NCBI GenBank assembly: GCA_934662525.1
Contig: CAKUKJ010000036.1
Location: forward strand, 1 to 11,666
Direction: 5' to 3'
DNA from: an uncultured Coriobacteriales bacterium
GTDB lineage: Bacteria; Actinomycetota; Coriobacteriia; Coriobacteriales; UMGS124
DNA length: 11,666 bases
How positions within the stretch are numbered: the stretch's first letter is position 1; the number at the start of each line of letters is the position of its first letter. Below are positions 101 to 10,261 of this stretch, one piece after another. Both the position numbers and the translations under genes were made by a program. Under the pieces are notes generated by a model. That model was not told where the DNA came from and ran no database searches. It saw only the letters and a list, made by a program, of their open reading frames with translations.

Positions 101-1015
101 ATGCCGCTCGTCTTCGACCATGTGACCTACCATTACGACACCGAGGTCGTGGGGCCTGCTCTCGACGATGTGTCGCTCACCGTCAACGACGGCGAGTTCG
201 TCGCCTTCATCGGCCACACGGGCTCGGGCAAGTCTACTTTGGCCGAGCACTGCAACGCCACGAAGCTGCCCTCCTCGGGCACGGTGACGATGGACGGCCT
301 GTCCACCGCCGACCGCAAGGCCCGCCGCGAGGTGCGCCGCCTGGTTGGCTTTGTCGCGCAATACCCCGAGTACCAGCTTTTTGCCGAAACCGTGCGCGAG
401 GACGTGGGCTTTGGCCCGCGCAACCTCGGCATGACCCCCGACGAGGTGGACGAGGCCGTGCGCGGCGCCGTCGCCTTGGTGGGCCTGGACTACGACGCCG
501 TGGCCGAGAAGTCGCCGTTCGACCTGTCGGGCGGGCAGAAGCGCCGCGTGGCCCTGGCCGGCATCATCGCGATGCACCCCAAGGTGCTCGTGCTCGACGA
601 GCCCATGGTGGGCCTCGACCCGCGCGGCCGCCGCGAGGTGTTCGACATCGTGAAGTCGCTGCATGCGCGCGGCACCACCATCGTCATGGTGTCGCACTCG
701 ATGGAAGACGTGGCCGAGGCCGCCCAGCGCATCGTTGTGCTCGACCACGGCCGCATCATCGACGAGGGCGCCCCCGAGGTCGTCTTCTCGCATGCGACGC
801 TTCTGCACAACGTCGGTCTCGACGTGCCGCTGCCGGCCCGTGTTGCCTATGAGCTGGGTAAACAGGGATTCGACGTGGGGTGCGAGCCGCTTACGCTTGA
901 TGCGCTCGCAGACGCCGTCGCGGCGGGCCTGGGCAAAGGCCGCCCATGCGGCGTTGACGCGAGGGCCGGGGCCAGCGTGCAGGCCGCAGTTTCGAAGGGG
1001 GGCGATTGCCTGTGA
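101..1015 (+). CDS. ecfA2: ECF transporter ATP-binding subunit EcfA2
   Basis: This is an ABC-type ATPase of 304 residues that powers a group II energy-coupling factor importer for vitamins or metal ions, acting at the cytoplasmic face with a second ATPase, EcfT and exchangeable S subunits. Visible motifs are Walker A GHTGSGKST (residues 38-46), Q-loop Gln87 in VAQYPEYQLF, signature LSGGQ (142-146), Walker B VLVLDEP (162-168) with Glu167 as the catalytic base, and the switch His199 in VMVSHS. The AQYPEYQLF Q-loop is typical of EcfA rather than of other ABC ATPases. The start is set by a strong GGGAGGGGAG site just upstream. The C-terminal tail after about residue 280 is low complexity and makes the protein a little longer than the usual 280-290 residues. 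The gene ends inside the start of ecfT. Confidence 0.93.
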   Translation: MPLVFDHVTYHYDTEVVGPALDDVSLTVNDGEFVAFIGHTGSGKSTLAEHCNATKLPSSGTVTMDGLSTADRKARREVRRLVGFVAQYPEYQLFAETVREDVGFGPRNLGMTPDEVDEAVRGAVALVGLDYDAVAEKSPFDLSGGQKRRVALAGIIAMHPKVLVLDEPMVGLDPRGRREVFDIVKSLHARGTTIVMVSHSMEDVAEAAQRIVVLDHGRIIDEGAPEVVFSHATLLHNVGLDVPLPARVAYELGKQGFDVGCEPLTLDALADAVAAGLGKGRPCGVDARAGASVQAAVSKGGDCL

Positions 1016-1812
1016 GCTCCTCCATCACCGTCGGCTCGTTCTACAACACCGCCTCGCCGCTTCATTCGCTTGACCCGCGTGTGAAGATGATCATCATGGT
1101 GATTTACATGGTGAGCGTGTTTTTGGCGCCGGCTCCCTGGGGCCTTGTCCCGGTCGCCGTCATGCTCGTGCTCGCCACGGCCCTTTCGCATGTGCCGCTG
1201 CGCGTTGTGTGCAAGGCCATCAAACCGCTGTGGTTCTTCGTCATCCTCACGATGATCGTGAACATCTTCCTCGTGCGCGAGGGCGAGGTAGCCTTCCACT
1301 TCCTGGGCTTCGCCATCACCGACCATGCCCTCATCCAGAGCGTCTACATGGCGTTCCGCGTGTTCGCGCTCATGATGGCGGGTACCCTGTTCTCGCTGGT
1401 GACCTCGCCCATCTCCATTACCGACGGCGCCGAGCGCCTGCTTGCCCCACTGGCGCGTTTCGGCGTGCCCGTGCATGAGCTGGCGATGATGTACACCATC
1501 GCCATCCGCTTCATGCCCACGCTGTTCGACGAGGTGCAGCACATCATGGCCGCCCAAGCGTCGCGCGGCGCGCGCTTCGACGAGGGCAGGCTCATCGACC
1601 GCGTCCGTTTCTTCGTGCCCATACTCGTGCCGCTCTTTGCCAGCGCCTTGCGCCATGCCGAGGAGCTTGCGAGCGCCATGGAGGCGCGCTGCTATGTGGG
1701 CGGCGAGGGGCGCACACATTACCATGTCCTTGCAGTGCGCAAGGGCGACTGGGTTGCAATCGCCGTGGCCGTCGTGTATCTGGCAAGCCTCGTTGTGCTT
1801 GCGTTTGTCTAG
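1012..1812 (+). CDS. ecfT: ECF transporter transmembrane subunit EcfT
   Basis: This 266-residue integral membrane protein couples the two EcfA ATPases to the substrate-binding S subunit. Hydrophobic helices are visible at about residues 26-58, 73-87, 110-132, 198-212 and 247-266. The two cytoplasmic coupling motifs that dock into the ATPases are present as ASRGAR (183-188) and MEARCY (223-228), which is diagnostic for EcfT. I chose GTG at 1012, which overlaps the ecfA2 stop and stands about 10 bases after the GGGGGG run at 997-1002. A TTG two codons earlier (1006) is possible but too close to that site. No S subunit gene follows, as expected for a group II module shared by several S proteins encoded elsewhere. 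Confidence 0.92.
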   Translation: MSSSITVGSFYNTASPLHSLDPRVKMIIMVIYMVSVFLAPAPWGLVPVAVMLVLATALSHVPLRVVCKAIKPLWFFVILTMIVNIFLVREGEVAFHFLGFAITDHALIQSVYMAFRVFALMMAGTLFSLVTSPISITDGAERLLAPLARFGVPVHELAMMYTIAIRFMPTLFDEVQHIMAAQASRGARFDEGRLIDRVRFFVPILVPLFASALRHAEELASAMEARCYVGGEGRTHYHVLAVRKGDWVAIAVAVVYLASLVVLAFV

Positions 1813-1839
1813 GCTGTAAGGATGAGAGGGGAGCCGCCG

Positions 1840-2325
1840 ATGTCTGGCATTGGGGCGGAGGTTGAGTGCAGCGCGTCGCCTGTCATTCGCGTGATGCAGG
1901 CCGCAGATTACGAGCAGGTGCACGACCTTTGGGAGCGCATCCACGGCTTTGCCCTGCGCTCGCTCGACGACTCGCGCGCCTATGTGGAGCGCTTCTTGCA
2001 GCGCAACCCCACCACAAGCTGTGTGGCGGAGCTTGACGGGCGCATCGTGGGCAGCATTCTGTGCGGGCACGACGGCAGGCAGGGCAGCTTCTACCATGTC
2101 TGCGTGGCCCCCGAGTGCCGCAAGCACGGCGTCGGCAAACAGATGGTGCGCTTTTGCCTGCAGGCCCTCGCAGCCGAGCACATCAGCAAGGCCACGCTCG
2201 TGGCCTTCGACGACAACGAGGTGGGCAACAAGTTCTGGAACGGCATCGGGTGGACGGCTCGCAAGGATTTCAACTCGTATGAGTTTGCGCTCAACGCGGA
2301 GAACATCACGCGGTATGTGCGTTGA
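1840..2325 (+). CDS. GNAT family N-acetyltransferase
   Basis: This 161-residue cytoplasmic enzyme is predicted to move an acetyl group from acetyl-CoA to an amine. Substrate is unknown. The acetyl-CoA pyrophosphate loop (motif A) is RKHGVG at residues 94-99, directly after the beta strand HVCVAPEC. Motif B follows with FDDNEVGNKFWNGIGW (123-138), the usual N-x-x-x-x-x-FW-x-x-x-GW pattern of GNAT proteins. I start at ATG 1840 because AGAGGGGAG at 1825-1833 is a good ribosome binding site for it. An in-frame ATG at 1822 has no properly spaced site. The gene begins 27 bases after ecfT, so it may read through from the ECF operon, and it is followed by an intrinsic terminator. Nothing links it functionally to cofactor transport. 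Confidence 0.88.
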   Translation: MSGIGAEVECSASPVIRVMQAADYEQVHDLWERIHGFALRSLDDSRAYVERFLQRNPTTSCVAELDGRIVGSILCGHDGRQGSFYHVCVAPECRKHGVGKQMVRFCLQALAAEHISKATLVAFDDNEVGNKFWNGIGWTARKDFNSYEFALNAENITRYVR

Positions 2326-2365
2326 GGCGTCTTGAGGCGTTGCTGCCGGACATTGGGGCTGATGG

Positions 2366-2393
2366 GGCGGCGGGTGATACCGGCCGCCTTTTT
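2366..2393 (+). terminator. Intrinsic terminator of the ecf-GNAT transcription unit
   Basis: Bases 2366-2388 fold into a G+C-rich hairpin: GGCGGC pairs with GCCGCC, there is one G-G mismatch, then GGT pairs with ACC around a three-base loop. TTTTT follows at 2389-2393. This is a classical Rho-independent terminator for + strand transcripts. The reverse strand has no U tract, so it would not stop leftward transcription. Confidence 0.88.
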
Positions 2394-2403
2394 ACGGCTC
2401 TAT

Positions 2404-2426
2404 AATCCTACAAATCCTATAGGATT
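2404..2426. repeat. AATCCTA direct repeat plus 14-bp perfect palindrome (operator-like)
   Basis: AATCCTA occurs at 2404-2410 and again at 2413-2419, and its exact inverse TAGGATT at 2420-2426. The last two form the perfect palindrome AATCCTATAGGATT. Three half-sites spaced by 9 and 7 bases resemble a binding site for a dimeric regulator. No regulator gene is adjacent, so the function is open. Confidence 0.5.
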
Positions 2427-2477
2427 GTGTAAGGTATATGAAGAGTTTGCTAAAGGAAAGTTTTTCGTTAGCTACTG

Positions 2478-2506
2478 TTGACTTAAAGTTAGTTATAACG
2501 TATTGT
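2478..2506 (+). promoter_or_regulatory. Sigma-70-like promoter candidate reading into the hairpin array
   Basis: TTGACT (2478-2483) is followed after exactly 17 bases by TATTGT (2501-2506), close to the TTGACA / TATAAT consensus. Transcription would start near 2513 and run rightward through the five hairpin repeats. It lies downstream of the GNAT terminator, so it would drive an independent transcript. Confidence 0.5.
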
Positions 2507-2512
2507 TCGTGT

Positions 2513-2882
2513 TGTCAGAAGGAGCTAACAAAAAGCACGACAGCAAGCAACTCCGGAAGACAGAGATTCGCCTCCCTCTCCTTTGGGACCCGGTTCTCCC
2601 AACCGGGTCCCGTCCCAGAGAGTCGGATGAATCGCTTGGTTTGCCTCCCTCTCCTTTGGGAGCCTGCATTTTCTCCGGCAGGCTCCCGTCCCTTGCCTCC
2701 CTCTCCTTGGGCCCCGGCAATCTCTCCCAGAAAGTCGGGGCCCGTCCCAAGAGGGTTGAAGCAGCCTCCCTCTCCTAGGCTCCCGGCCTTCCCAGCCGGG
2801 AGCCGTCCCTGAGGGTCCGCTTCGTCGATTTGCCTCCCTCTCCTTGGCCTCCAGCCCTCCCAGCTGGGGGCCGTCCTGTTTT
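2513..2882 (+). ncRNA. Candidate structured RNA made of five UCCC-loop hairpins
   Basis: This is an inference from three observations: the promoter-like site at 2478-2506, five hairpins with compensatory stem changes, and two non-canonical stem pairs that are G-U only if the + strand is transcribed (2717/2735 and 2850/2868) and would be A-C mismatches on the other strand. The loops carry CUCCC or UUCCC and the linkers carry CCUCCCUCUCC, which is complementary to Shine-Dalgarno sequences. Such C-rich unpaired motifs are known in regulatory RNAs of Gram-positive bacteria. The end is uncertain: the last hairpin is followed by a short TTTT at 2879-2882, a weak terminator at best. It could instead be a DNA-level repeat with no transcript. 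Confidence 0.35.
2570..2876. repeat. Five-unit hairpin repeat array with conserved flanks and variable, still-pairing stems
   Basis: Units lie at 2570-2616, 2643-2692, 2695-2748, 2764-2809 and 2832-2876. Each begins with GCCTCCCTCTCCT, then a stem, a C-rich loop, the returning stem arm and GTCCC (GTCCT in unit 5). Left arms are GGGACCCGGTT (2585-2595), GGGAGCCTGC (2658-2667), GGGCCCCGGC (2709-2718), GGCTCCCGGC (2778-2787) and GGCCTCCAGC (2846-2855). The right arms are their complements except for one G-T pair in unit 3 and one in unit 5. Loops are 5, 10, 15, 7 and 7 bases and nearly all contain CTCCC or TTCCC. Stem positions 3, 4, 5, 8 and 10 change between units with matching changes in the partner arm. 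The array lies between two convergent genes and occurs nowhere else in the window. Confidence 0.92.
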
Positions 2883-2920
2883 GGGAGGTTGAGGCTCGCG
2901 CCTTTCAAGCCTGTTGGGCC

Positions 2921-4027
2921 TCAGATATGCTTTCCGCCGTCGAGCCTGCGGAATGTGCGCACGGCCCAGCGGCGGCGTCCCGTGTTGGGCGGAAAGACGA
3001 TGTTCACAAGCGGCATGCCCACCTTGAACGCCATGAACACGACGAGGCGATGACCCAGCGCCTTGGCGTTGCACCGGGACTCCTCGAGCATCGCGACAAG
3101 CTGCTTGCGCCAAGGGCAGCGGCGTGCGTAGGACCACCATTCCTCGGAGAAGTCTACCTTGGGATAGAGCCAAGGACGGTTGTCGGGGCCTGCGTAGTGC
3201 ACGATCTTCGGCGCCCGCCGGGCCTGGGCATATGCCGCCCGCAAGTGGGCGGGGGCACAGGGGATGATGTGCTCGCAGCGCAGCTTCTGCCAGTCGAAGA
3301 GCGTGTTCCACGACATGTCGAGCCGCACATAGTCGCCGCTGGCCAGGTAGTTGAGCACGTCTTGGTCGAGCCATTGCCAGTGGTGCGTCGTGGCCAGGGC
3401 TATGCATTTTCCTGTGGGGCAACTGCGGCGGAACTCTGCGAGGTTGAGCACCAGCACGCCGGCCTGGAAATACGTGTAGGGGTCCTTGAGGCCCACGTCG
3501 TTTTTGAGATAGCCGTAGATTGACTCGTCGTAGCCGCCCGCCATGCCGGCGGTGTCGGCGTCGAGCGTGGCTGCGAGCAGGTGGTTGCCCAGCTCGACGT
3601 CGTAGAGGTCTGCGATGTCGTGGAGCACCACGAGGTCGCAGTCGATGTAGGCGGCCTTGTCGACGCCCGGCAGAAGCTCGGGAGCCAGCAGGCGATAGTA
3701 GGTCTCGCAGGCGAAATGGCCGTGGCAGGGCAACGTCGCGTTGCCGGCGGCGGCCATCGCGTCGAGGAAGCCCACGCGCACGTTGGGCTTGCAGGAGGCC
3801 TGCCAGTGCAACAGCTCCATGTTGGCGGGGGAGATGTCGCTCGTGAGCACTACGATGTCGTACTCGCGGGCGGGATTCACGTGCTCGAGTATCGACTGCA
3901 GCGTGACCGACATATAGGGGACGAACTTCTCGTTGCAAGCGAGAAGCACGACCACGTCGTTCATGGGTTGGCCGAGTTCGGCGGCGTTCTTGCATAGGCC
4001 GATCGGCGGATTCGTCAAAGCGTCCAT
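2921..4027 (-). CDS. Family 8 glycosyltransferase (GT8)
   Basis: This 368-residue retaining glycosyltransferase is predicted to move a hexose from a nucleotide sugar to an acceptor at the cytoplasmic membrane face. GT8 members build lipopolysaccharide, capsule or wall glycans. Visible marks are the N-terminal strand VVVLLACNEKFVPYMSVTL (residues 25-43), the metal-binding DxD as YIDCDLVVL (127-135), the YFQAGVLVLNL segment (186-196), LDQDVLN (220-226) and the C-terminal metal ligand motif KIVHYAG (274-280). The end is basic with a hydrophobic stretch (about 316-336) that may touch the membrane. ATG 4027 follows the previous stop by 9 bases with no clear binding site, so translational coupling is likely. 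The second Met at 3964 begins exactly where the family domain starts and is a fair alternative. Acceptor and sugar are unknown; its place behind dlt suggests a teichoic or other envelope polymer. Confidence 0.9.
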   Translation of the reverse strand: MDALTNPPIGLCKNAAELGQPMNDVVVLLACNEKFVPYMSVTLQSILEHVNPAREYDIVVLTSDISPANMELLHWQASCKPNVRVGFLDAMAAAGNATLPCHGHFACETYYRLLAPELLPGVDKAAYIDCDLVVLHDIADLYDVELGNHLLAATLDADTAGMAGGYDESIYGYLKNDVGLKDPYTYFQAGVLVLNLAEFRRSCPTGKCIALATTHHWQWLDQDVLNYLASGDYVRLDMSWNTLFDWQKLRCEHIIPCAPAHLRAAYAQARRAPKIVHYAGPDNRPWLYPKVDFSEEWWSYARRCPWRKQLVAMLEESRCNAKALGHRLVVFMAFKVGMPLVNIVFPPNTGRRRWAVRTFRRLDGGKHI

Positions 4028-5742: not shown

Positions 5743-6960
5743 TTACTCGTTCTCCTCGTCCGATGCGGTGGCCGAGTCGTTTGCGAACTCATAGAGCGCC
5801 TGGTTGAGGTCGACCCAGCCTGTCCAACCGAAGTGCACGATATCGTAGAGCCAGTACTGCTCGTATTCACGGTCGGAGAAGTCGCACACCCGCGCCCCTG
5901 CCTCCTCGCAGATTTGGCGCACGTGGCTGTAGCAGTTCTCGCGCGTTTGGGCGTCGATGCCGATGAGGTCGTAGTAGGGCCCCATTTCCGGGCATATGAC
6001 GACCATGACGTCGACGCCGCATTCGTCGGCGACCTTCAGGAACGCGGCAAGGTCGTCGTACTCAGGCGTGTCGGTGTAGGTCTCGTCGGCGCGCGAGCCT
6101 GCTGCGGCGTCGAGCACGGGGGCGAGCGACTTGCTGTAGAAGGTGTCTTCCACGCCCCAGTCGTTGTTTGTGGAACGGGTCTTGGCGTAGTCGAGCGCCG
6201 CAGCGCGCATGGCGTCCCAATCGGGCGTCTGCTCCTCCTGGTCGGCGACGCTTTCTATGCCGCGCGAGCGCACCTCGCTCAAGTCGCGGCGCAGCGACAG
6301 GCCGTCGAAGGCCGAGAAAACGACGCGGTTGAGACAGTCTTGCGGCAAGCTGCCCGACGCCGAGTCGAGCTTCGTCTCGTCGATGCCCAGCTCGGCCAGA
6401 CGGTCCCGCACGTAGGCCTTTGTCTCGTCGCTGATGGCGTCGTTGTCGCAGAATGCCTGGTACAGCGAGTAAGAGAAGCGCGTCTGGAACGTGGAGGCGT
6501 CCTCGCCGCCGTCAACGAACCACCCAGGGCTCACGATGAGCACGCATTTCTGGCGCGGCAGCCCCTCGTCTTGGGCAAGGGCGCCCAGGGCTATGGTCTG
6601 CCAGAGGCTCTGGTCGTATGCCTCGCCCACGAGCATGAGGTCGAGGCCGTAGTTCGTCTGCCCAAAGACTTGGGAAGCCACCTGCGGCACGGTGCTTGCC
6701 GGCGTGGAGAACTCAGACGAGCCGAAGACGATGAGCGAGCGGTCTGTCATGTTCGCCCGCATGAAGTCGACGCTCGACGACTTCGCCCCCGAGTACACGT
6801 ACCCGTAGTTCTGTGAGGCGTTCACGTCGCCCTGGGCCGGCCAGGCGGTGAAGACGCACGCCACGCCCACCCCTGCCAGGGCGATGCCCACGCTGGCGGC
6901 AGCCAGGCGCAAGCGCACCTGGCGGGGATTCATGGGTTTTGGCTTCATCTTGCGGGCCAC
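5743..6960 (-). CDS. dltD: D-alanyl transfer protein DltD
   Basis: This 405-residue SGNH-like protein, anchored by one N-terminal helix (about 18-38), acts outside the cell to place D-alanine on teichoic acids. The nucleophile motif FGSSEFS is at 79-85, with the Ser pair 81/82 following the Gly. Further family segments are VSPGWFVDG (143-151) and NNDWGVEDTFY (265-275). The C-terminal Asp-x-x-His pair is LYDIVHFGWTGW (371-382), giving Asp373 and His376. The start is GTG 6960 with AAAGG about 7 bases upstream; in-frame ATGs at 6948 and 6933 lack one. It lies 41 bases after dltC and one base before dltX. Length and motifs are normal, so it looks functional. Confidence 0.95.
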   Translation of the reverse strand: MARKMKPKPMNPRQVRLRLAAASVGIALAGVGVACVFTAWPAQGDVNASQNYGYVYSGAKSSSVDFMRANMTDRSLIVFGSSEFSTPASTVPQVASQVFGQTNYGLDLMLVGEAYDQSLWQTIALGALAQDEGLPRQKCVLIVSPGWFVDGGEDASTFQTRFSYSLYQAFCDNDAISDETKAYVRDRLAELGIDETKLDSASGSLPQDCLNRVVFSAFDGLSLRRDLSEVRSRGIESVADQEEQTPDWDAMRAAALDYAKTRSTNNDWGVEDTFYSKSLAPVLDAAAGSRADETYTDTPEYDDLAAFLKVADECGVDVMVVICPEMGPYYDLIGIDAQTRENCYSHVRQICEEAGARVCDFSDREYEQYWLYDIVHFGWTGWVDLNQALYEFANDSATASDEENE

Positions 6961-7001
6961 GGCTAACCTTTCTTGCAGAACCTGCCTTTAGCGGGACGGA
7001 C

Positions 7002-7250
7002 TTACATGCGCTCGGCAGTGCGGGCGACGATCTTGTTGAGGGTGTTCATTTCCTCGCGCTCGAGCTCGGTGGGGGCGATGGACACGCCGAAGTTGGCCTC
7101 AAGCGCCACGAGCAGCTCGATGGCGGTCAGCGAGTCGAGCACGTCCTCCTCAAAGAGGTCGATGTCGGGCTCGTCGCGGATGTCGTCCTCGCCGGTGATG
7201 TCGGCCACGAGGTCGCAAATCTGATCGAAAAGGTCGGCGGGTGCGCTCAT
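7002..7250 (-). CDS. dltC: D-alanyl carrier protein DltC
   Basis: This 82-residue acidic acyl-carrier-like protein holds D-alanine as a thioester on a phosphopantetheine arm and delivers it from DltA to DltB. The attachment site is Ser40 in VLDSLTAIELL, and the rest fits the four-helix carrier fold. Length is typical (about 78-82). The start is ATG 7250 with GGAAAGGA about 8 bases upstream. It lies 24 bases after dltB, whose end carries two adjacent TAG stops (7275-7277 and 7272-7274). The neighbours dltA, dltB and dltD set it apart from fatty-acid or polyketide carriers. Confidence 0.95.
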   Translation of the reverse strand: MSAPADLFDQICDLVADITGEDDIRDEPDIDLFEEDVLDSLTAIELLVALEANFGVSIAPTELEREEMNTLNKIVARTAERM

Positions 7251-7274
7251 GTCACAATCCTTTCCTAGAGGCTA

Positions 7275-8471
7275 CTAAGCGGTCACGGGGTGCAAAACCT
7301 GGCCGCTGAACAGGGCAAAGCCGAAGAACACGCAAATCATCGTGATGGCCCAGGAAACAAGCTTGAACCAACCCTGCTTGCGATGCTGCTTGTAGAACCT
7401 GCTCTTCTTCTGAAAGGCCTCGCAGCTCGCCAGGAGCACGCCGTGGTACACGCCGTAGATGAGGTAGTCGGGCGTGATGCCGTGCCAGGCGCCCATAAGC
7501 ACGAAGTTGATCATGAACGCCACGCAGGCGCAGGTGAGCGTGGAGGAGAAGAGCTTGCGCTTGAGGGCGAACTGCGTGAAGCGCATGAACACGAAGTCGC
7601 GCAGCCAGCTGGAGAGGCTGATGTGCCAGCGGTTCCAGAAGTCCTTGATGTCGGTGGCGCAGAAGGGCGCGCGGAAGTTGCGCGGCACATCCACGCCCAA
7701 GGCGTACCCCACGCCCATGGCCATGTGCGAATAGCCCGCGAAGTCGAAGAACAGGTACAGGCCATAGGCGAAGGCGTACACAAGCTGCGTTTGCGCGAAA
7801 GCGACGCCCGTGGACGTGCCGATGGCCGCCGGGCCAAACCACATGAGCCACTGCGCGAGCGGCGCCGCCACAAACTTGTAGAGCGCGCCCGCCGCGAACC
7901 ACCCCAAGCCGCGCAGCAGAAGTTCCAGGTAAGCGTCGCGAGACAGGGGCTTGGTCGTGTTCTCCTCAAACGGGCGGCTGCGCAGGATGGGACCCGAGGT
8001 GAACGTGGGGAAAAACGACAGGAAGTACAGGTAGTGCCAGACCTTCACCTCGTGAATGAGCCCGTCGCGTGTCTCGATGAGCACCTGCACGGCCTTGAAG
8101 GTGATGTAGGAGATTCCCAAGAAGCCAAGGAAATCCGGCTCAAACACCACGCCCATCTTGTAGACGGCCAAGGGGGCTATCTGCACGGCCAACGCCGCGC
8201 GGTAGAGCCCGACCGCGTGCGGCGAGGGGGCCGAGCCGTCTTTGGGGTTGAACAAGCGGCATACCCAGCAGGCAAGCGCGATGGAGCCCACCAGGTAGCA
8301 TGCGAAGAAGGCGAGCGACGGCAGCGCCTTGGAGTAGAGAAGCGCCAGCATGGCAAGCGACGCCACACAGCCCCACGGTGCGATGGGGCGCTCGCGCACG
8401 CCGAGCACGACGGCCACGGCCACGATGGGGAGGAGCGGTATGAAGAACGCCGGGTCGAGGTAGAAGCTCAT
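7275..8471 (-). CDS. dltB: D-alanyl transfer membrane protein DltB (MBOAT family)
   Basis: This 398-residue polytopic membrane protein of the membrane-bound O-acyltransferase family accepts D-alanine from DltC on the inside and passes it outward. Many hydrophobic helices cover the whole length. Family hallmarks are FFDFAGYSHMAMG (241-253), FWNRWHISLSSWLRDFV (278-294, His283) and MGAWHGITPDYLIYG (326-340). His330 in the last corresponds to the catalytic MBOAT histidine. It begins 15 bases after dltA and TAGGGCGG at that junction may serve as binding site. No damage is visible. Confidence 0.95.
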   Translation of the reverse strand: MSFYLDPAFFIPLLPIVAVAVVLGVRERPIAPWGCVASLAMLALLYSKALPSLAFFACYLVGSIALACWVCRLFNPKDGSAPSPHAVGLYRAALAVQIAPLAVYKMGVVFEPDFLGFLGISYITFKAVQVLIETRDGLIHEVKVWHYLYFLSFFPTFTSGPILRSRPFEENTTKPLSRDAYLELLLRGLGWFAAGALYKFVAAPLAQWLMWFGPAAIGTSTGVAFAQTQLVYAFAYGLYLFFDFAGYSHMAMGVGYALGVDVPRNFRAPFCATDIKDFWNRWHISLSSWLRDFVFMRFTQFALKRKLFSSTLTCACVAFMINFVLMGAWHGITPDYLIYGVYHGVLLASCEAFQKKSRFYKQHRKQGWFKLVSWAITMICVFFGFALFSGQVLHPVTA

Positions 8472-8486
8472 GCCTTGCGCGCCGCC

Positions 8487-10094
8487 CTACAGGTCAAACA
8501 TGGCGGCGAGCGCCTTGCGGTCGGCCTTGCCGTTTGAGTTGAGGGGCATGACGTCGATGTATTTGAAGGAGCTGGGCACCATGTAGGCGGGCAACGCCTG
8601 CTTGAGCTGGCTCTTGATCTGCTTGGTGAGGGCAAAGCCGCGCGGGGCCTCCAGGTCGGAGGGCACGACGACGGCCGTGAGGTGGGCGATGGAGGAGCCC
8701 TTGCGCACGGGCAGCACGCAGGCCATGCGCACCTCGGGCACGGCGACCAGGCATGACTCGATGTCGCCGAGCTCGATGCGGTAGCCGTGCAGCTTCACCT
8801 GCAGGTCGAGCCTGCCGTGGTAGTAGATGATGCCGGAGGGGTCGCGCGTGACCTCGTCGCCCGTGCGGTACGACTTGCGGCCCTGCGCCAGCGCCTCGGG
8901 GCAGGAGTGAAACGCCGCCTGAGTGATGTCGGGACGTTTCCAATACCCGCGGGCCACCGTGTCGCCCACGATGTACATCTCGCCTGCCGTGCCGTCGGGC
9001 ACCTGCTCAAGCGTTGCGGGGTCCACGACGTACAGGTCGGTGCCGGGCTTGGCGAAGCCGATGGGAAGCGCCCGGTCGGCCTCGAGCATCTCGTCGGTGA
9101 TGCGCACGAGCGTCACCAGGTCGGTGGACTCGGTGGGGCCGTAGCCGTTGTAGACGTCGACCTTGCCGTGGAAGCGCTCGCGCACGGCGCGCACGGTCTC
9201 GGCGCGCAGGGTCTCGCCGGCAAGCAGCATGCGGTGCAGGCGCGGCATGAGGTCGACGCCGAACGACGGGTCGGCCAGGCACTGCTCCACAAAGGAGGGC
9301 GTGGACACCCAGTCGGTTGCCCCAGACTGCCTGAGCGCGTCGAACGTCGCGGCCAGGCTTGCGTCGGCCTTTGCCTCGTTGGCAAAGCACGTGTCGCCGC
9401 GCGTGAGGCCGCAGCACATGTCGGTGATGCTCACGTCGAAGGAGAACGGCGTGCGGTTGAACCACACGCGGCCGCCGAAGTCAGGGTCCTGGCCGTCTGC
9501 AAGGGGCTCCTCGAAGGCGTAGTCGCGCGTCATCCAGTCGTAGAAGCCGTCGACGCACTCAGTCATGACCTCCACGCCCTTGGGCGTGCCGGTGCTGCCC
9601 GAGGTGAACAGGATGTAGTAGGTGTCCTTCTTGGCAAGGCCTTCGAGCGCTTGGACCTGCTCGGCGGATATGGCCTGCCCGCAGGCGCGGGCAAGCTCGT
9701 CGGGGCCGATGCAGGGCGCGCCCACCTGGCAGTCGTCGGCACGGGCGAACGTGCCGATGGTGTCCAAGACGGCGGTGGGGGCCACCTGTGAGGCGATGTT
9801 GGCGACGCGCTCGGGCGGGTAGACCGTGTCGACGGGCGCATAGGCGTGGCCCGACTTCACGCAAGCCAAAAAGCTCACGAGCATGAGAGGCGACTTGTGG
9901 CCGTACACCACGAGCGGGGCGCCCGCGGGAATCGCGGGGTTGGCGGCAATCCAGCAGGCAAGCGCGTCGGATGCCGCGCGCAACTGGGCAAACATGATGC
10001 GCTCGCCTGCGCTGTTGGCAAAGGCGACGCGGTTGGGCACCACGTCCGCCTGGGCGTCCACCGCCTGTACGAACTCACTGTCAATCCTGGCCAC
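8487..10094 (-). CDS. dltA: D-alanine--D-alanyl carrier protein ligase DltA
   Basis: This 535-residue cytosolic adenylating enzyme activates D-alanine with ATP and loads it on DltC. Core motifs in order are the P-loop FTSGSTGTPKG (163-173), NRTPFSFDVS (213-222), NGYGPTEST (316-324), YRTGDEV (409-415), GRLDLQVKLHGYRIELGDIE (427-446) and the C-terminal lysine in NSNGKADRKAL (519-529, Lys523). Cys272 in STPSFVEQCL matches the cysteine known to favour D-alanine in DltA. The start is GTG 10094 with GGGGGCGG about 6 bases upstream. The enzyme is somewhat longer than the usual roughly 500 residues, chiefly through inserts around 198-212 and 115-150. It heads the dlt genes proper, 171 bases after the small lipoprotein gene, and a repeat element lies in that gap. 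Confidence 0.95.
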   Translation of the reverse strand: MARIDSEFVQAVDAQADVVPNRVAFANSAGERIMFAQLRAASDALACWIAANPAIPAGAPLVVYGHKSPLMLVSFLACVKSGHAYAPVDTVYPPERVANIASQVAPTAVLDTIGTFARADDCQVGAPCIGPDELARACGQAISAEQVQALEGLAKKDTYYILFTSGSTGTPKGVEVMTECVDGFYDWMTRDYAFEEPLADGQDPDFGGRVWFNRTPFSFDVSITDMCCGLTRGDTCFANEAKADASLAATFDALRQSGATDWVSTPSFVEQCLADPSFGVDLMPRLHRMLLAGETLRAETVRAVRERFHGKVDVYNGYGPTESTDLVTLVRITDEMLEADRALPIGFAKPGTDLYVVDPATLEQVPDGTAGEMYIVGDTVARGYWKRPDITQAAFHSCPEALAQGRKSYRTGDEVTRDPSGIIYYHGRLDLQVKLHGYRIELGDIESCLVAVPEVRMACVLPVRKGSSIAHLTAVVVPSDLEAPRGFALTKQIKSQLKQALPAYMVPSSFKYIDVMPLNSNGKADRKALAAMFDL

Positions 10095-10141: not shown

Positions 10142-10261
10142 AACGCGGCGCATCAGGTTCCGCAACCCGTTAAAGCGCGGGTTCTCGTCCGCAAGGCGTC
10201 GGGAGGCGACGTGTACTGGAGTACTCTAGCCTCCCGAGAACGCGGCGGACGAGGTTCCGCA
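10142..10261. repeat. Compound palindromic element bordered by 23-bp direct repeats
   Basis: Two direct repeats, 10142-10164 and 10239-10261, share AACGCGGCG and AGGTTCCGCA around a four-base core that differs (CATC versus GACG), 97 bases apart. Between them is a nested fold: CTCGTCCGC (10184-10192) pairs with GCGGACGAG (10245-10253), TCGGGAGGC (10199-10207) pairs with GCCTCCCGA (10229-10237), and GTACT (10213-10217) pairs with AGTAC (10220-10224). A separate hairpin AACCCG / CGGGTT lies at 10164-10169 and 10178-10183. There is no T tract in either direction, so it is not an intrinsic terminator. It fills the gap between the lipoprotein gene and dltA and resembles a REP- or MITE-like element or a leader structure of dltA. 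Confidence 0.8.

Follow-up and report, generated by a model that had tools for sequence, protein, structure and literature searches.

A conserved array of covarying hairpins and C-rich linkers in Coriobacteriales, a candidate noncoding RNA with repeated anti-Shine-Dalgarno sites

Introduction

Bacterial small RNAs with C-rich single strands include B11 of mycobacteria, which is the 6C RNA, and CcsR1-4 of Rhodobacter, which carry a C-rich motif. In the excerpts cited here, B11 is described as pairing through its C-rich single strand with G tracts beside ribosome-binding sites, impeding translation (PMC12395582), and CcsR1-4 as several sRNAs processed from one transcript and derived from an mRNA 3' UTR (PMC8625941). 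Yfr1 of cyanobacteria is 54-69 nt long and consists of stem-loops with unconserved loops around one unpaired, ultraconserved CU-rich motif, ACUCCUCACAC; its genomic position is conserved in most of its genomes (PMC2190773). The alphaR8 sRNAs of Caulobacter, SisA-D, have a single-stranded 10-mer core, UUUCCUCCCU, with an anti-Shine-Dalgarno (anti-SD) signature, and are separate single-copy genes with unrelated promoters and an association with Hfq (PMC12559287). As far as these excerpts go, sRNAs already known to carry an unpaired CU- or C-rich motif use it to pair at ribosome-binding sites (PMC12395582, PMC12559287).

Here we describe an array of five hairpin units in an 11,666-nt stretch of DNA from an uncultured Coriobacteriales bacterium, referred to as the window. 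The original prediction recognized no named family in it, and a search of the window with the Rfam 15 covariance models agreed, with 0 matches at gathering score. Collinsella-1, 6C, Yfr1 and alphaR8, presumably all in that library, were absent from the weak matches in 2300-2950 (E up to 5) and 2380-2570 (E up to 1). Going by the excerpts, Yfr1 is closest in design, with stem-loops around an ultraconserved CU motif, but the array has five linkers in series, and its linker is GCCUCCCUCUCCU rather than an unpaired ACUCCUCACAC between two stem-loops. The alphaR8 RNAs have the closest core; the full UUUCCUCCCU is absent from the array, only CCUCCCU being common to that core and the array linker, and no tandem units in one transcript are described for alphaR8. 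B11/6C is actinobacterial and is described with three stem-loops and its C-rich part in the loops, without an invariant linker, whereas C-rich hairpin loops as pairing sites are not a general property of the array, GNRA loops occurring in 6/6 units of two relatives. CcsR1-4 are reported to come from an mRNA 3' UTR, while the array is intergenic with its own promoter. What sets the array apart from Yfr1, alphaR8 and B11 is serial repetition, between hairpins, in one array under one promoter. Searches of open-access literature for small RNAs of Coriobacteriia, Collinsella and Eggerthella and for actinobacterial C-rich sRNAs listed no description of it; the available text of two structured-RNA surveys gave nothing for a few terms, and their supplements may contain the array unnamed.

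Results

Searching the window with the pattern GCCTCCCTCTCCT-N1-2-GG...CCGTCC returned five matches on the forward strand, one at the start of each unit in Table 1, while none of 200 shuffled versions of the window contained a match. Five units sharing GCCTCCCTCTCCT and a 10-11 bp stem, as first proposed, are thus present. Across the array (2570-2876) each unit consists of GCCTCCCTCTCCT, 1-2 bases, a stem of 10-11 bp, a loop of 5-15 nt and then GTCC. The proposal of a common loop and a common GTCCC stands in part: GTCCC follows the stem in units 1-4 and GTCCT in unit 5, and the loop is 10 nt long in unit 2 and 15 nt in unit 3. All stems are perfect over their length, bar two pairs, 2717/2735 and 2850/2868, both of which are G-U in forward-strand RNA, as had been predicted. 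Every one of the 50 scored stem cells is paired. Both sides have changed in 5/10 scored stem pairs, a number reached by 13/500 shuffles; the covariation score, at 0.67, is attained by 0/500 shuffles, whose mean is 0.24; and in slid controls only 31-56% of cells pair. The claim that stem pairing is under selection is upheld by these values. The array region also folds better than 100/100 shuffles on each strand, with z of -5.7 for the forward and -5.0 for the reverse strand. Unit 5 and the TCCTGTTTTG after it make a weak terminator-like end, and terminator-like sites in the region number 3 against 1.0 expected.

Table 1. Array units, promoter elements and flanking genes in the window, and array loci in three related genomes
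Feature	Location	Strand	Details
ecfA2-type gene	101-1015	+	Pfam; upstream of array
ecfT-type gene	1006-1812	+	Pfam; upstream of array
GNAT gene	1822-2325		Pfam; between ecf genes and array
Palindromic box TTAGCTACTGTTGA	2468..2481	+	overlaps -35; aligns with GTTARC-N4-GTTGAC or a close variant in three relatives
Promoter TTGACT-17-TATTGT	2478..2506	+	sole promoter-like site in 2300-3000 (0.1 expected)
Second, weaker candidate box TCAGAAGGAGCTAA	2515..2528	+	near +8; picked by eye on the four-locus alignment
Unit 1	2570..2616	+	linker 2570-2582; stem 2585-2595/2601-2611; loop 2596-2600; GTCCC 2612-2616
Unit 2	2643..2692	+	linker 2643-2655; stem 2658-2667/2678-2687; loop 2668-2677; GTCCC 2688-2692
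Unit 3	2695..2748	+	linker 2695-2707; stem 2709-2718/2734-2743 (one G-U); loop 2719-2733; GTCCC 2744-2748
Unit 4	2764..2809	+	linker 2764-2776; stem 2778-2787/2795-2804; loop 2788-2794; GTCCC 2805-2809
Unit 5	2832..2877	+	linker 2832-2844; stem 2846-2855/2863-2872 (one U-G); loop 2856-2862; GTCCT 2873-2877
Glycosyltransferase family 8 (GT8) gene	2921..4027	-	PF01501, E 2.7e-34; convergent with array
G596 array	L075	-	4 units and a degenerate one
G668 array	L076	+	4 units
G689 array	L077		2 units, then contig end

A covariance model of the five window units, run on 396 genomes of one class, matched 94 of them at E up to 0.01, many of the matches being single, stem-only or low-scoring. With an array defined as at least two units within 300 nt, by which single-unit matches are dropped, this search left runs of units in only three of the 396 genomes (G596, G668 and G689). 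One further genome (G463) gave three identical matches. A pattern search of 395 genomes of the order matched G596, G668, G154 and G820, its spacing missing G689; by eye, G154 and G820 lack hairpin units and were rejected as arrays. A second model, made from 15 units of four genomes and run on the same 395 genomes, matched 31 at E up to 0.001, and unit runs were again confined to G596, G668 and G689. In all, 16 loci from the class-wide model search and 12 from the second-model search were inspected. G596, G668 and G689 are the family of G596 in the searched collection, so the array is present in 3/3 genomes of that family. In the other 392 genomes of the order the pattern and model searches found no further array; the filters were strict and 15 candidates were scored in each genome, which could let diverged copies escape. 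Each of the three relatives has one array locus, and G668 and G689 each have one single-unit sibling besides. The original prediction held that many genome copies with randomly mismatched stems would mark an inert DNA repeat; such copies were not found in these three genomes, nor were the many copies per genome of a dispersed palindromic (REP-like) repeat.

Outside these genomes, a strict pattern picked up 12 singletons in unrelated genomes of the collection, which we took as chance matches, the shorter motif occurring at one site only in each. In viral contigs a two-linker pattern was found in 58 stretches; one (L109) is a coding-type repeat by its sequence, and the others were judged probable chance or coding matches, for some on motif spacing.

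The four genomes together provide 15 units, in all of which CCTCCCTCT is identical while the stems differ widely. In an alignment of the 15 units 98% of 148 cells are paired, although this alignment was fitted by the model and so leans toward the structure; slid versions of it pair in 20-67% of cells. Double changes occur in 7/10 pairs (3/500 shuffles reach 7), the doubly changed cells number 34 in all (0/500 shuffles), and the covariation score was again attained by 0/500. The window and G596 have pyrimidine-rich loops, and all six units of G668 and G689 have GNRA loops (GCAA, GAAA or GCGA). The emphasis that the original prediction placed on C-rich loops is not sustained, the conserved part being the linker. 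Because the linker is invariant, the stems stay paired and the loops vary, selection acts on linker sequence and hairpin pairing, not on hairpin sequence or loop. GNRA loops stabilise RNA, and on the array strand G-U cells outnumber A-C cells by 3 to 1; the GNRA loops of G668 and G689 and this G-U bias point to an RNA read from the forward strand, the strand favoured from the outset.

When the window, G596, G668 and G689 loci were aligned, a shared promoter appeared on the array strand. In all four loci its -35 element, TTGAC(A/T), overlaps a box that reads GTTARC-N4-GTTGAC or closely resembles it, as with GTAAGC in G689; the -10 element, TATTNT or TACTAT, lies 16-17 nt beyond, and a second box of similar sequence, picked out by eye, sits near +8. 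From the window promoter we estimate a transcript start near 2513-2516. Exact matches to GTTARCNNNNGTTRAC number one in G596 and one in G668, each at the array promoter, and none in G689. In the window alone the box, with up to 1 mismatch, does not occur beyond chance (0.55 expected; 83/200 shuffles). A 5-4-5 palindrome is the kind bound by Crp/Fnr proteins, and the box over the -35 is perhaps a Crp/Fnr-type operator.

The array is intergenic, lying between position 2325, where the gene to its left stops, and position 2921, the end of the convergent GT8 gene. In G596, too, a GT8 gene is convergent with the array, and ecfA-ecfT genes lie on the opposite side. The window EcfA2 and EcfT proteins are 53% and 50% identical to their best matches at the G596 locus, above 20 other loci compared, and the GT8 proteins of the two loci share 51%. 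The ecf genes of the window are in the opposite orientation relative to the array compared with G596, with the GNAT gene intervening. The array neighbours in G668 and G689 differ, being tRNA-Arg and a pth-like gene (named by eye). A MAG named 'Coriobacteriales bacterium' carries a protein to which the G596 GT8 is identical over 93%, and the window GT8 has full-length relatives at 86-94%. Elsewhere in the window, a dlt-like cluster spans 5746-10094 on the reverse strand, with DltD, a PP-binding carrier and MBOAT assigned by Pfam and a dltA-like ORF at 8487-10094 by eye; an inverted repeat, CGGGAGGC...GCCTCCCG, lies at 10200-10250, beyond the start of that ORF.

The linker GCCUCCCUCUCCU is complementary to AGGAGAGGGAGGC and therefore to common Shine-Dalgarno (SD) sequences, in keeping with the early description of the C-rich stretch as anti-SD-like. 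Its predicted unpaired fraction is 0.38-0.67 in the window, 0.39-0.45 in G689, 0.55-0.98 in G596 and 0.58-0.82 in G668. In the predicted window fold, G-rich stretches 3' of four of the five units (2617-2622, 2749-2755, 2810-2815 and 2883-2888) pair back to the linker as an outer helix, so the window linkers may be partly masked in this species. Inspection of the G668 sequence showed no helix of this kind, and that of G596 showed one at most, so the helix was set aside as a general feature.

Of 50 matches to GGAGAGGGAGG in G596 with up to 1 mismatch outside the array, 16 are followed by an ORF start at a distance of 2-15 nt, compared with 6/38 for the reversed pattern; products assigned by eye to the start-proximal matches include Tat-signal, DmsB-, KorD- and NifJ-like proteins. 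Among 723 sampled G596 genes, with gene starts called by a crude rule as in all these target tests, the linker's strong start-region partners exceed those of 20/20 equal-composition probes at all four thresholds (linker 46, 24, 9, 5; shuffle maxima 37, 13, 4, 1; reversed 19, 7, 1, 1). Counts for 283 sampled G668 genes were 47, 27, 10 and 6 for the linker, with shuffle maxima of 36, 20, 8 and 3 and reversed counts of 24, 13, 5 and 2. Because shuffling also disrupts the anti-SD core, that core may by itself account for this excess, and we regard the target enrichment as only suggestive.

Six of the 16 start-proximal G596 matches are Tat-type by eye, against 1/6 for the reversed pattern; two rules put the base rate among the 723 sampled genes at 80 or 87. 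Tat genes, however, have stronger SDs (p = 9e-9). Within the sampled G596 genes, Tat genes make up 2/6 matches with up to 1 mismatch (1.4 expected) and 8/22 with up to 2 mismatches (Fisher 0.0025 unmatched), a modest excess over the 4.5 expected when SD strength is matched, and five control patterns gave 1/11, 5/18, 1/12, 2/14 and 0/18. By duplex energy, G596 Tat genes do not differ from the others (p = 0.73). Those of G668 pair better with the linker (p = 0.015) but with the reversed probe too (p = 0.001), without a linker-specific advantage (p = 0.42). In G689, 32/68 matches lie before an ORF (the 68 including the array's own two), with Tat genes at 6 by rule and 2 more by eye; these are plain counts without a base rate, and the reversed pattern, counted only at loci picked for the linker, is no fair control. 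Tat genes as a target class are a lead only.

Related single units were also seen. In G668 (L081 3850-3896, contig C83) and G689 (L078 4237-4288, contig C399), a single hairpin unit consists of (C)CTCCCTCTCTTT, a GGAGCCC stem and then CTCCCCTCCTTTCT, with GTATCA..G.GTCAA common upstream; it is perhaps a sibling sRNA. In six other genomes a PTS-type gene and a glycosidase-type gene, assigned by eye, are separated by a C-rich linker and hairpin (near 1500 in L152-L156 and at 4138-4219 in L080), a possible intercistronic element. G331 and G543 share an orthologous unit in an intergenic position (L148 and L151, near 1500); it consists of (A)G(C/T)CTCCCTCTCC, a hairpin and TCTATTTGT and is terminator-like.

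Discussion

We conclude that the array is a genuine structured RNA element, conserved in relatives and without a match in Rfam. It is very likely transcribed, and its RNA is most likely a multi-site anti-SD regulator that would pair with and repress mRNAs. On balance we think it probable that the array is the gene of a new noncoding RNA whose repeated anti-SD linkers block translation of several mRNAs. Such an RNA would be about 360 nt long, running on the forward strand from about 2513 to about 2880 by prediction, and would be driven by its own promoter under control of the palindromic box over the -35, perhaps through a Crp/Fnr-type factor. It would expose five copies of GCCUCCCUCUCCU between hairpins serving as rigid spacers and end protectors, and each copy would pair with SD sequences of the AGGAG or GGGAGG type. 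Since each linker could pair in this way, one RNA molecule could block initiation on several mRNAs. By analogy with Yfr1, alphaR8 and B11, which block translation with single motifs, the array RNA probably does so with several.

CsrB and RsmZ titrate an RNA-binding protein through GGA motifs, and the CU-rich linkers between hairpins could similarly make the array RNA a sponge for such a protein. Identical linker copies in one RNA (5 in the window, 4 each in G596 and G668, 2 before the contig end in G689) would suit this role, as would a linker that is invariant in sequence beside stems selected for pairing only; but a protein site need not be complementary to SD sequences, and single-unit siblings exist in G668 and G689, so that we hold a sponge to be unlikely. 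It is distinctly unlikely that the units are processing, stability or termination elements at a transcript 3' end, with no mRNA binding in trans by the linkers. Other Coriobacteriales genomes do have single linker-hairpin units between genes or downstream of them, the last window unit is terminator-like and the array faces a convergent gene, yet in all four loci the array is preceded by a conserved promoter of its own, and neither serial copies nor an invariant 9-mer is required of a terminator or stabiliser.

Readings below the level of noncoding RNA fare worse. Tandem palindromic units and good folding of both strands are what a cruciform or a mobile palindrome family would give at the DNA level, but the single array locus per relative without scattered copies in G596, G668 and G689, together with the GNRA loops, the G-U bias and the conserved promoter, makes this very improbable. 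As would be expected of units encoding a repeated peptide, the arrays of the window and of relatives are overlapped by ORFs; the stem changes follow pairing, however, and the units stand in different frames, as their spacings are mostly not multiples of three (73, 52, 69 and 68 in the window; 49, 50 and 47 in G668), so a coding repeat is scarcely credible.

Pairing with mRNAs fits best, although the linkers of the window and G689 are predicted to be only partly exposed, Tat genes as a class are not specifically better partners, and an identical motif in several copies would suit a protein sponge as well. A more specific version, which we consider doubtful, is that a family-defining multivalent anti-SD RNA with its own Crp/Fnr-type redox switch represses anaerobic electron-transfer enzymes as a group, Tat-exported reductases and ferredoxin oxidoreductases among them, with several mRNAs per RNA. 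The array adds an RNA family to a bacterial class for which the open-access literature, in the part available, yielded no small-RNA study. Its serial layout, an invariant strip between interchangeable hairpins, is a natural test of why an RNA would keep several copies of a pairing site, whether for binding multiple targets or for titration.
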